The position numbers and the translations under genes were made by a program. From Chitinophaga pinensis (GTDB lineage: Bacteria > Bacteroidota > Bacteroidia > B-17B0 > Aurantibacillaceae): a stretch of DNA of 64,000 nucleotides. A model generated the notes under the pieces. That model saw only the letters and a program-made list of their open reading frames with translations. It ran no database searches and was not told the DNA's origin. The stretch covers positions 1-64,000 of the forward strand of contig CAMAPT010000007.1 in assembly GCA_945860225.1 (NCBI GenBank). Reading direction: 5' to 3'. Below, one piece after another: positions 48,931 to 53,509 of the stretch (its first letter is position 1; each line of letters opens with the position of its first letter).

Positions 48931-48953
48931 TTTTTTGATATAAATTCGTTGGG

Positions 48954-48998
48954 TTACCCTCTGTTTAAAGTAAAAAAAATGCCTTAAACAGAGGGTAA
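48954..48998 (+). terminator. hairpin after glyA
   Basis: A long perfect stem, TTACCCTCTGTTTAA pairing with TTAAACAGAGGGTAA, with a purine-rich loop, starts 23 bases after the glyA stop. No long T-run follows, so it may be a terminator or an mRNA-stabilising hairpin. Confidence 0.75.
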
Positions 48999-49062: not shown

Positions 49063-49095
49063 TTTGCAAATAAAGAAAATAATGTTTTAAATTTG
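49063..49095 (+). promoter_or_regulatory. Bacteroidota-type promoter of the methionine operon
   Basis: A TTTG (49063-49066) lies 21 bases upstream of TAAATTTG (49088-49095), fitting the Bacteroidota consensus (-33 TTG, -7 TAnnTTTG). Transcription would start near 49101, about 25 bases before the riboswitch. Confidence 0.65.
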
Positions 49096-49124
49096 CATCC
49101 GAATTACTACCCACCTAGTGTGTA

Positions 49125-49259
49125 TTAATTTATAAAGAAGCGACGAGAGAATAGGCTCTATGACTCGCTGGCAACCAACTCGAAGTGGAGACTACATGTC
49201 AAAATTGGAAAACCGGTGCCAACTCCTACTCTGATGAAAAGCGGAGAAAAATAAATTAA
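49125..49259 (+). promoter_or_regulatory. SAM riboswitch (SAM-I type, Bacteroidota variant)
   Basis: An aptamer-like region with the SAM-family core: GAGAGA near 49145, GGCTCTATGACTCG, GCTGGCAACC (about 49169-49177), GGTGCC (49215-49220) and the downstream CTCC...GGAG stem. A nine-pair P1 is formed by TTAATTTAT (49125-49133) with ATAAATTAA (49251-49259). SAM-I elements sense S-adenosylmethionine and repress methionine genes. The P1 3' strand ends 10 bases before the leader-peptide start codon, which suggests control of translation initiation. The lack of a T-run after P1 fits that view. Confidence 0.85.
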
Positions 49260-49269
49260 AAACAAGAAA

Positions 49270-49410
49270 ATGAAACACACAAAATCAAAAACAATCAGTG
49301 ACGTCTATTTTGGCAGAACTCAAAGATTAAATTACCCAAAAGTAAATTTCAACTTCATTCCTTTATATTTCATTATGGCTTGTATGTGTTGCTGTTGCTA
49401 CATGTGCTAG
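49270..49410 (+). CDS. 46-residue leader peptide ending in a Met/Cys codon run
   Basis: An ATG 10 bases after the riboswitch P1 helix opens a 46-codon frame ending TAG at 49408-49410. The last eleven residues are MACMCCCCYMC, with 6 Cys (TGT, TGT, TGC, TGT, TGC, TGC) and 3 Met; the preceding 35 residues have no Cys and only the start Met. The composition and its position ahead of metY point to a regulatory leader whose translation senses charged tRNA-Cys and tRNA-Met. Poly-Cys leader peptides are known in actinobacteria (Cys-tail attenuators). Here one is paired with a SAM riboswitch. The product is unlikely to have its own role. Confidence 0.75.
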   Translation: MKHTKSKTISDVYFGRTQRLNYPKVNFNFIPLYFIMACMCCCCYMC

Positions 49411-49444
49411 GCTAAAGTTTTTCGTTTTTTATCAAAAAAATTAA

Positions 49445-49485
49445 TCTTGGCAATTCAAGAGTTACTGATGCTTTCTTGTATTCAG
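49445..49485 (+). promoter_or_regulatory. mutually exclusive hairpins after the leader peptide
   Basis: TCTTG (49445-49449), CAAGA (49456-49460) and TCTTG (49474-49478) allow the middle segment to pair with either side, and CTGA (49465-49468) with TCAG (49482-49485) offers a further stem. Alternative pairing like this is what attenuators use. The stems are short, so this is tentative. Confidence 0.35.
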
Positions 49486-49531: not shown

Positions 49532-49768
49532 ATGAAATCGAATAAATATTTTAAAGAAAAAACTCAAATAGATTCTAATTTAATAGGTCAATCCCATTAT
49601 CGTCATTATTTAAAACTACAAGCTATCTATGGTCTTGCGCAAAGTGGAGGTGTTCAATTTCCACATATTAGCCTAGAGCATAGTAAACGTTTGGTGAGCG
49701 ATGTTAACATCTTAACGTCAAACGAAAACAAACAAGTCATTTTTTCTGAGTCTATTTTTAGTAATTAG
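49532..49768 (+). CDS. small hypothetical protein in the methionine leader region
   Basis: I do not recognise a family. The 78-residue frame (MKSNKYFKEKTQIDSNLIGQ at the start) has no signal peptide, membrane helix or Cys. It lies between the Cys/Met leader peptide and metY, with 92 non-coding bases before metY. The YLKLQAIYGLAQSGG stretch could be a helix. It may be a real small protein, a second regulatory ORF, or chance. Its conservation next to metY in related genomes would decide. Confidence 0.5.
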   Translation: MKSNKYFKEKTQIDSNLIGQSHYRHYLKLQAIYGLAQSGGVQFPHISLEHSKRLVSDVNILTSNENKQVIFSESIFSN

Positions 49769-49836: not shown

Positions 49837-51207
<1,371 letters not shown>

Positions 51208-51218
51208 AAATTACAGAT

Positions 51219-51257
51219 AATCACCTTTCTATAACAATGAGAGAGGTGATTTTTTTA
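51219..51257 (+). terminator. intrinsic terminator between metY and metX
   Basis: AATCACCT (51219-51226) pairs with AGGTGATT (51244-51251), followed by a run of T residues to 51257. It would reduce read-through from metY into metX and overlaps the alternative ATG at 51237, which supports the later metX start. Confidence 0.75.
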
Positions 51258-51260
51258 AAT

Positions 51261-52283
51261 ATGAATTATCATTATACTCACCATAAAACATTTCAACTAG
51301 AAAGTGGATTAGTTTTACCGAACCTAGAAATCTCTTACCATACTTATGGTAAATTAAATGAGAATAAAAATAATGTTATTTGGGTTTCTCATGCATTAAC
51401 CGCTAATAGTGATGTGTTTGATTGGTGGAGTGGTTTATTTGGTGATAAGGATTTGTTTAATTCTGAAGAATATTTTATAGTATGCGCTAATAATTTAGGA
51501 TCTTGTTATGGTACCACTGGACCTTTAAGTACTAATCCTAAAACAGATAAACCTTGGTTTAGTGATTTCCCTGAAATTACTATTCGAGATATGGCTAACG
51601 TTTTACAAATCTTAAAACAACATTTGGGTATTACTAAAATACATACTTTAATAGGTGGTTCTCAAGGTGGGCAAATTGCTCAAGAATGGGTATTAGAATA
51701 TCCGGAAATAACGGATCATTTAATTTTAATTGCTACAAATGCTGAACATTCTCCTTGGGGAATTGCATTTAATGAATCACAACGTTTGGCTATTAAGGCA
51801 GATTCAACTTATTTTTCAAATACAGTTAACGGAGGTCAAAATGGTTTATTAGCAGCACGTAGCATAGCTTTGTTAAGTTATAGAAATTATCATACGTATA
51901 ATATCACTCAAAAAAATTCTGACAAAAATCAATTTAAAAATCAACTAGCATCTTCTTATCAGCGTTATCAAGGAGAAAAATTAACTAAACGATTTAATGC
52001 GTATTCTTATATGAGATTGTTGGAAGCAATGGATTCTCATAATATATCGAGAAAAAAAGTTGGTAATATTGAAACTGTATTGACTCAAATTAGAATTCCT
52101 ACAATGGTTATAGGTGTAAAATCTGATATTTTATTTCCTATTCAAGAACAACAATTTTTGGCTGATTATATTCCGGCTGCGATGTATTATGAAATCGATT
52201 CCGTTTATGGGCACGATGGTTTTTTAATAGAAACTGAGCAATTAACACAACATATCAAACATTTTTTACAATCAAAAAAATAA
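51261..52283 (+). CDS. metX: homoserine O-acetyltransferase
   Basis: An alpha/beta-hydrolase that acetylates homoserine with acetyl-CoA. It has the oxyanion GSCYGTTGP, the nucleophile elbow GGSQGG (Ser134), then the Asp in VKSDILFP and the His in VYGHDGFL of the catalytic triad. I chose the ATG at 51261, giving 340 residues, instead of one at 51237, since the latter lies inside the loop of the terminator stem. It supplies the substrate for MetY and starts 54 bases after the metY stop. Confidence 0.93.
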   Translation: MNYHYTHHKTFQLESGLVLPNLEISYHTYGKLNENKNNVIWVSHALTANSDVFDWWSGLFGDKDLFNSEEYFIVCANNLGSCYGTTGPLSTNPKTDKPWFSDFPEITIRDMANVLQILKQHLGITKIHTLIGGSQGGQIAQEWVLEYPEITDHLILIATNAEHSPWGIAFNESQRLAIKADSTYFSNTVNGGQNGLLAARSIALLSYRNYHTYNITQKNSDKNQFKNQLASSYQRYQGEKLTKRFNAYSYMRLLEAMDSHNISRKKVGNIETVLTQIRIPTMVIGVKSDILFPIQEQQFLADYIPAAMYYEIDSVYGHDGFLIETEQLTQHIKHFLQSKK

Positions 52284-52309: not shown

Positions 52310-53509
52310 ATGGGAAATACATTGAAAATAGGTTTATTTGGATTTGGCTGCGTAGGTCAAGGGCTATACCACGTATTAAATAACAGTACCGGATTTAAAG
52401 CCGATATTGTTAAAATTGGTTTGAAAGACAAAAATAAACCTAGAACTATTGGAAAGGAATTAATCACATTTGATAAATGGGAAATTTTGAACAATCCTGA
52501 AATTAATGTCATTGTAGAATTAATTGATGATGCCGATGAGGCTTTTTTGATAGTTAGTGAAGCACTTAAAAAAGGCAAGCACGTTGTTACGGCTAATAAA
52601 AAATTATTAGCAACTCATTTGAACGAATTATACCGATTACAGGAAGAAAATAATGTGTCATTATTGTATGAAGCATCTGCTTGCGGTAGCATTCCAATTA
52701 TTAGAACTTTAGAAGAGTATTTTGATAATGAAGAGTTAGAAAAAGTATCAGGAATATTTAATGGTACAACGAATTATATTTTAACTAAAACTATCATTGA
52801 AAAATTGTCTTATGCAGAAGCTTTAAAACAAGCTCAAGATAAGGGATTTGCTGAGTCTGATCCAACCAATGATGTTGAGGGATTTGATGCTAAATACAAA
52901 GCGGTTATTGTTGCTCTACACGCCTTTGGGTTAATTATTAAACAAGAAGAAGTTTTAAATATAGGTATCACAACTTTACATGAAAATGATATTAAATACG
53001 CGTCGGAAAAGGGCTATAAAATTAAATTGACTCCAATTATTCAAAAATTGGGTGGAGATAAAGTCAGTGTTTTTGTAGCACCCAGATTTATAAAGGAACA
53101 TAGTCATTTATATAATGTAGATAATGAGTTTAATGGTGTCATTGTTGAGGGACAATTTTCTGGAGAGCAATTTTTGCAAGGAAGAGGCGCAGGGAGTTAT
53201 CCAACAGGTGCAGCCGTTCTATCCGATATTTCAGCGTTATCGCATGGTTATAAATATGAATTTAAAAAGTATAGCCAAAAACATGCCCCCGTATTTACTA
53301 ATGATGTTTTTGTAGAAGTTTATTTAAGATATAATCACGAAGAGGATTTGAAACAAATTCCATTTCATGAAGTAACAGAAAAATATGCCAGTAGGGACTA
53401 TAAGTATATTATTGGAAAAGTTAATTTACAAGTATTAATTGCAAATAAATCTTATATTATTAATAATCATTTGTTCTTATCTCTAGTAAAAGATAGCGTG
53501 ACTAAATAA
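52310..53509 (+). CDS. hom: homoserine dehydrogenase
   Basis: Reduces aspartate semialdehyde to homoserine, the branch point to methionine and threonine. The N-terminal dinucleotide fold has GLFGFGCVGQGLY; VVTANKKLLATH, the conserved EASACGSIPIIRTL and SGIFNGTTNYILT follow, with GFAESDPTNDVEGFDAKYK in the catalytic domain. At 399 residues it is a monofunctional enzyme with no aspartate kinase fused and no clear C-terminal ACT domain, so feedback control by threonine may be weak. It closes the metY-metX-hom operon. Confidence 0.95.
   Translation: MGNTLKIGLFGFGCVGQGLYHVLNNSTGFKADIVKIGLKDKNKPRTIGKELITFDKWEILNNPEINVIVELIDDADEAFLIVSEALKKGKHVVTANKKLLATHLNELYRLQEENNVSLLYEASACGSIPIIRTLEEYFDNEELEKVSGIFNGTTNYILTKTIIEKLSYAEALKQAQDKGFAESDPTNDVEGFDAKYKAVIVALHAFGLIIKQEEVLNIGITTLHENDIKYASEKGYKIKLTPIIQKLGGDKVSVFVAPRFIKEHSHLYNVDNEFNGVIVEGQFSGEQFLQGRGAGSYPTGAAVLSDISALSHGYKYEFKKYSQKHAPVFTNDVFVEVYLRYNHEEDLKQIPFHEVTEKYASRDYKYIIGKVNLQVLIANKSYIINNHLFLSLVKDSVTK

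Follow-up and report, generated by a model that had tools for sequence, protein, structure and literature searches.

A SAM-I riboswitch and a leader ORF with a Cys-rich end are kept together in Sphingobacteriales, Cytophagales, Saprospiraceae, and uncultured Flavobacteriales-like lineages, and they are found together only before metY/metX, not before metH. In the window analyzed in this study (the whole 64,000-nucleotide stretch of DNA), both stand upstream of metY-metX-hom (Table 1). We read them as a two-input attenuator of this methionine operon, with a probability of about 0.58; from the observed anatomy and conservation, we infer that SAM gates translation of the leader and that ribosomes stall in its tail. 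A single switch would then probably respond to the end product as well as to how much of the sulfur amino acids is available. For the control of one gene, riboswitches and leader-peptide attenuators are commonly regarded as alternatives, and to our knowledge leader-peptide attenuation has barely been described in Bacteroidota.

Table 1. Features of the metY upstream region and operon, in window positions.
Feature	Position	Strand	Evidence or remark
Promoter, Bacteroidota type	49063..49095	+	TTTG at 49063-49066, TAAATTTG at 49088-49095
SAM-I aptamer	49127..49257	+	Rfam RF00162; P1 reaches 49125-49133 / 49251-49259
Leader ORF, 46 codons	49270..49410	+	Stop TAG at 49408-49410; position and design conserved in relatives
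Cys/Met tail MACMCCCCYMC	49375..49407	+	Tail conservation in the family; 47% Cys in named relatives
Terminator-like hairpin and U-rich tract	49376..49430	+	Hairpin 49376-49414, AAG, U-rich tract 49418-49430
Second small conserved hairpin, CUUG...CAAG, after the U-tract	49446..49459	+	Paired in 97% of cells (alignment A2, helix 4)
Small conserved ORF, 78 aa, between leader and metY	49532..49768	+	Family relatives at the same place, 26-69% identity
metY (regulated gene)	49861..51207	+	TIGR01326, 669.6 bits, cut-off 495.1; O-acetylhomoserine/O-acetylserine sulfhydrylase subfamily
metX, homoserine O-acetyltransferase	51237..52283	+	Best match TIGR01392, E 5.5e-103, under the model's cut-off
hom, homoserine dehydrogenase	52310..53509	+	NF004976, 341.4 bits, cut-off 205

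Riboswitch, leader, and operon

The promoter, riboswitch, and leader ORF all lie between the end of glyA (48930) and the start of metY (49861). A strong inverted repeat 3' of glyA (48953-48998, UUACCCUCUGUUUAA...UUAAACAGAGGGUAA) probably terminates the glyA transcript, as judged from its sequence; thus, the riboswitch transcript would have its own start. Of 23 related loci, 19 have the pattern TTTG-N(16-23)-TANNTTTG equally far from the aptamer, compared with 3+4 matches over the whole 64-kb window. The aptamer was recognized by cmscan as a full match to RF00162 (model positions 1-108; 64.7 bits against a cut-off of 44.4; E 9.1e-13), which was the sole Rfam match in the 64-kb window at curated cut-offs. 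P1 can be read as nine A-U pairs between UUAAUUUAU and AUAAAUUAA, and exactly 10 bases separate its end from the leader ATG at 49270. By its sequence, its structure, and its place before metY-metX-hom, this element is a SAM-I riboswitch, with SAM binding predicted. The promoter, the aptamer, the nine-pair P1, and the 10-base gap had all been described in a first-pass annotation of this DNA, and they were confirmed, the aptamer by cmscan and the others on the sequence.

The leader peptide has 46 residues (MKHTKSK...FIMACMCCCCYMC), and its last 11 codons hold all six Cys and three of the four Met, as had also been stated before. The sequence TGYTGYTGYTGY occurs 23 times in the genome itself; among 15 copies that were checked, an ATG-started frame was found only for that of the leader. 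As a test of its proposal, the first-pass annotation had named conservation of the tail, with drift of the rest of the peptide, in related Flavobacteriia. Within the family of the window, pairwise identity is 74% over the last nine residues and 27% over the body, and this behavior holds well beyond Flavobacteriia. In 39 of 44 loci, the TGY runs fall within the open frame that begins at the first ATG. In named relatives, the tails (last 12 residues) consist of 47% Cys and 12% Met, compared with 2.3% Cys and 1.6% Met in the bodies, and many tails contain no Met. Given these compositions, the leader looks to be mainly a Cys sensor, and its sensing of Met weaker than that of Cys. The earlier proposal that the tail senses both sulfur amino acids is thus partly supported, less well for Met than for Cys. 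One member of the genus carries a leader with a damaged tail (ACMWCGMRQFGFSF; L012:1642-1764) and with metX immediately downstream, which may represent decay or altered regulation.

The elements had been placed ahead of metY-metX-hom. Their order is correct, but they do not adjoin metY: the leader stop lies 450 nt from this gene, with the 78-aa ORF in between. The product of this ORF has the motif NLIG...LQA.YG.AQRGG...RLVSDVN.L...E...IFSE.IFSN, matches no Pfam or NCBIfam family, and is encoded before metY or metX across the family of the window; the ORF belongs to the transcript, not to the sensor. At another locus (L273:1596-2033), whose leader is the same as that of L121, a gene for an OsmC-like protein lies between the Cys leader and metY; similarly long gaps between leader and metY are present in L097, L150, and L157. 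Enzymes of the MetY subfamily incorporate sulfide into homocysteine and, in certain cases, into cysteine. A Cys input therefore makes sense for this operon.

Conservation before metY/metX and metH

The distribution of the leader was examined in 80 named Bacteroidota loci, chosen solely by MetY similarity, in which the riboswitch was then located with Rfam. A SAM riboswitch was found in 64 of the 80 loci. In 52 of these 64, an ATG located 2-16 nt past the aptamer opens a Cys-tailed ORF (at least four Cys among its last 14 codons); the 52 ORFs span 32-64 codons, and most of them have their AUG 8-11 nt from the end of the aptamer. Dinucleotide shuffles of the same regions yield an ORF of this kind in 0.06%.

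Comparison within genomes showed where the leader is present and where it is absent. At the genus level, most genomes carry two SAM-I riboswitches, one before the metY/metX operon and one before metH. The leaders before metY/metX have the form MKHT...MACMCCCCxMC, and the metH riboswitches have no such leader. In the whole-genome set, a leader follows 49 of 55 SAM riboswitches of metY/metX operons, and a Cys leader follows none of the 74 metH riboswitches and none of the 28 other SAM riboswitches (Fisher 2e-34); the leader counts do not represent independent events, given that these are related sequences and that both sets appear to share a few genomes, with identical leaders (L083/L015, L093/L022, L082/L190). 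The order-level genome set consists of the same 87 genomes as the family-level set. The contrast with metH is made within the same genomes, and is thus unaffected by shared ancestry or overlap. In the genome of the window itself, no Cys leader was found near the cysE- and cysK/M-like genes.

Some loci depart from the common form. The leader of L159 has three Cys. The Cys tail is missing from some SAM-metY loci, namely L155, L228, and those of Sphingobacterium, where leaders end in RMR. Such RMR ends replace the Cys run at the same place in L138, L144, and L160 (all Sphingobacterium) and in L216, for example as CMSMRMR, ATRMR, or CCITRMR; the sensor end seems to have been exchanged in these loci. 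The three Sphingobacterium loci also have a GUCGUC...GACGAC pairing 3' of the leader stop. In Spirosoma, very short leaders of 13-15 codons that end in CMPARAY or CMPAGAY have a SAM aptamer 5' and metY 3' (L119:2312-2359 and L124:2316-2357).

RNA structures over and beyond the tail

The first-pass annotation did not include an output device. For the lineage of the window, we propose the hairpin and U-tract that overlap the tail, a structure that distant relatives do not share. The tail codons form the 5' arm and the loop of this hairpin, and the stop codon lies within the 3' arm. The hairpin comprises 14 outer and 2 inner pairs, with a folding energy of -16.8 kcal/mol (z -2.62), and is followed by AAG and then UUUUUCGUUUUUU. 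When the window was aligned with 12 relatives, 93% of the cells of this structure were paired, a value that 0 of 500 shuffles reached, and some covariation is seen. A strict terminator scan called 11 of 14 family loci as having a hairpin and U-tract over the tail; the hairpin of the window itself was not called, because the 3-nt AAG spacer precedes the U-tract. Compared with synonymous recodings, the tail hairpin is stabler than their mean in all of the 21 leaders (p ≤ 0.05 in 7). Both the peptide and the hairpin are therefore kept, which resembles attenuators where a stalled ribosome keeps the hairpin from forming.

The hairpin that overlaps the tail is mostly missing from distant relatives, and a universal intrinsic terminator was rejected for this reason. 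The view that the tail is conserved merely as a by-product of the hairpin was rejected as well, given that distant leaders without the hairpin keep the Cys run in frame with the ATG.

Eleven Cytophagales loci have a conserved strand farther downstream, CAGCAACA, with which the Cys codons can pair instead; this strand adjoins a covarying element with an invariant GUGAC loop. The RNA element, about 55 nt long, is located 3' of the Cys leader and 5' of the following gene, for example at L096:2391-2449 and L143:2386-2440; the remaining nine loci are L097, L099, L112, L120, L121, L135, L147, L156, and L157. It matched no Rfam family at curated cut-offs. A model of the element (E < 0.001) found only its 11 source metY loci and 1 of 247 class genomes, where the leader is that of L121. 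Since the model finds almost nothing outside its source loci, the element was rejected as a general part of the arrangement. Over all lineages, pairing of the tail with downstream RNA is weak (5 of 52 significant), so downstream anti-Cys pairing is claimed for this one Cytophagales group only. The same test over 52 loci gave no general signal of a mutually exclusive antiterminator. The two sensors are conserved, and the output device varies between lineages.

Proposed mechanism and alternatives

In the proposed two-input attenuator, P1 would be held shut when SAM is plentiful. Its 3' strand lies 11-19 nt before the AUG, within the stretch that a Bacteroidota ribosome would need free. In the SAM-bound state, the leader would remain untranslated, the hairpin would fold, and transcription would stop before metY. 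When SAM is low, the leader would be translated. A shortage of charged tRNA-Cys, or less strongly of charged tRNA-Met, would then stall the ribosome in the tail, where it would cover the hairpin's 5' arm and let RNA polymerase continue into metY-metX-hom. If Cys is plentiful, the ribosome would complete the leader and depart, and the hairpin could form. The expression of metY would be maximal when SAM and Cys are both low. The contrast between on and off would depend on timing, since a ribosome that completes the leader also covers the hairpin for some time. The tight spacing between aptamer and AUG across the phylum fits SAM gating of leader translation. Bacteroidia ribosomes are reported not to recognize Shine-Dalgarno sequences (PMC9976891).

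A broader formulation may be considered, to which we give even odds. The expression platform of the riboswitch would be the translation of an attenuator peptide, forming a one-RNA logic gate across much of Bacteroidota. The output step, whether an intrinsic hairpin, anti-Cys pairing, or another device, would have been replaced repeatedly while the two sensors and the spacing of about 10 nt stayed.

The main rival assumes two independent controls in series. The riboswitch would act through its own RNA switch, in which 3' strands of the aptamer and the terminator region exchange partners; the Cys leader would act separately, with no SAM gating of its translation. In the window, the 3' part of the aptamer (49231-49249) could form 17 consecutive pairs with 49417-49435 (GUUUUUCGUUUUUUAUC, the U-tract region), and this complementarity reaches p ≤ 0.03 in 10 of 19 family loci, although it sets A-rich against U-rich RNA in related sequences. 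The U-tract is still inside the polymerase at the moment when termination is decided; pairing with it would therefore make a poor antiterminator. Also in favor of independent controls is that the modules are separable. Sphingobacterium keeps the riboswitch with a leader ending in RMR, four more loci have a Cys-tailed ORF farther from the aptamer (L125, L141, L146, and L148), and Cys-rich short ORFs precede metY without a detected riboswitch in L092, L126, and L151 (L126 was scanned at the curated cut-off only). However, separate controls leave the tight phylum-wide distance from aptamer to AUG unexplained, and we consider this reading doubtful.

It is also conceivable, though improbable, that the transcript is shielded from Rho or from degradation by SAM-gated translation of the leader; the Cys tail would serve as a brake or timer, and no intrinsic terminator would be involved. 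As this reading would expect, no clear terminator is seen at the tail in most distant lineages, and a riboswitch-controlled small upstream ORF coupled with Rho-dependent termination has a precedent in M. tuberculosis (PMC12810186). In the family of the window, however, a hairpin and a U-tract are conserved exactly over the tail. A third reading takes the tail as an arrest peptide, in which the nascent chain rather than tRNA charging stalls the ribosome, perhaps on a metabolite. The recurring non-Cys ends (RMR in Sphingobacterium, CMPAxAY in Spirosoma) look motif-like, but most tails are plain Cys runs with a variable pattern, as expected for the sensing of tRNA charging, and we give this reading very little weight. 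Least credible of all, and rejected, is a small Cys-rich protein with its own function, such as metal or sulfide binding, which the Cys clusters and the open frame conserved over a wide range might suggest, but which has no family match, is conserved at its end with a drifting body, always has its tail beside the stop codon, and is encoded only before metY/metX operons and not before metH.

If the two-input attenuator is correct, the arrangement offers a natural two-input switch for sulfur metabolism. The stacked sensors also make the attenuation of this phylum, and riboswitch action without Shine-Dalgarno sequences, testable in the culturable genera Mucilaginibacter, Pedobacter, Hymenobacter, and Pontibacter.

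Comparison with known systems

The first-pass annotation knew of no Cys leader with a SAM riboswitch in Bacteroidota, and searches of an open-access library yielded no earlier report of the combination. SAM-I riboswitches of Bacteroidetes appear in a survey of riboswitch mechanisms, with no leader peptides listed (PMC2258182). Transcriptome data from a flavobacterium have led to the suggestion that leader peptides act as attenuators before amino acid operons; SAM riboswitches do not appear in the main text of that study (PMC9723704). New in this analysis are the role of the Cys codons as the 5' arm of a terminator-like hairpin in the family of the window, and their potential pairing with a downstream strand in some Cytophagales.

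Each part has known counterparts. The riboswitch resembles other SAM-I (S-box) members of RF00162, being a full-length aptamer above the cut-off and upstream of methionine genes, but its P1 is followed by the start codon of an attenuator peptide instead of a terminator or the start of the regulated gene itself. Leader peptides with Cys runs were described in the cys and cbs operons of actinobacteria (PMC1262725), as had been noted before; they likewise are short ORFs with Cys codons beside the stop, located before sulfur amino acid genes. However, those leaders belong to another phylum, were reported with neither a riboswitch nor a conserved terminator, and precede cys or cbs genes rather than metY/metX. 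In Rhodobacterales, uORFC-8-2 is a Cys-codon attenuator of cysS, whose Cys codons lie in a stem followed by U residues (PMC8632094). Its Cys codons are thus inside a hairpin before U residues as they are here, and stalling was proposed to lead to read-through. Unlike the present leader, it has two Cys codons, controls cysS, and has no riboswitch.

The combination of inputs also has relatives. In M. tuberculosis, a B12 riboswitch (PMC11260477) and an Mbox riboswitch (PMC12810186) control or cooperate with short upstream ORFs. As in a system of this type, the leader described here starts close behind the aptamer, 10 nt after P1 (mostly 8-11 nt from the aptamer end in the 52 relatives), where a bound ligand could block its start; however, no codon run for an amino acid of the pathway has been described for these systems, few loci are involved, and the output is Rho-dependent or translational. 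In Bacillus clausii, metE is preceded by tandem SAM-I and AdoCbl riboswitches (described in PMC2258182), and two inputs thus act on the leader of one methionine gene. Both of these inputs are aptamers, whereas the second input here would be a translated leader, and no second Rfam aptamer was found in the window at curated cut-offs. Finally, classical attenuators of the trp, his, and leu type share the codon run for an amino acid of the pathway and the cognate operon; a hairpin with a U-tract, typical of them, is conserved in the family of the window but mostly missing from distant lineages. The present leader differs from them in that no separate antiterminator was found, the codon run is itself the 5' arm of the putative terminator, and a SAM aptamer stands in front. 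In sum, the arrangement consists of known sensor types in a composite and widely conserved form.
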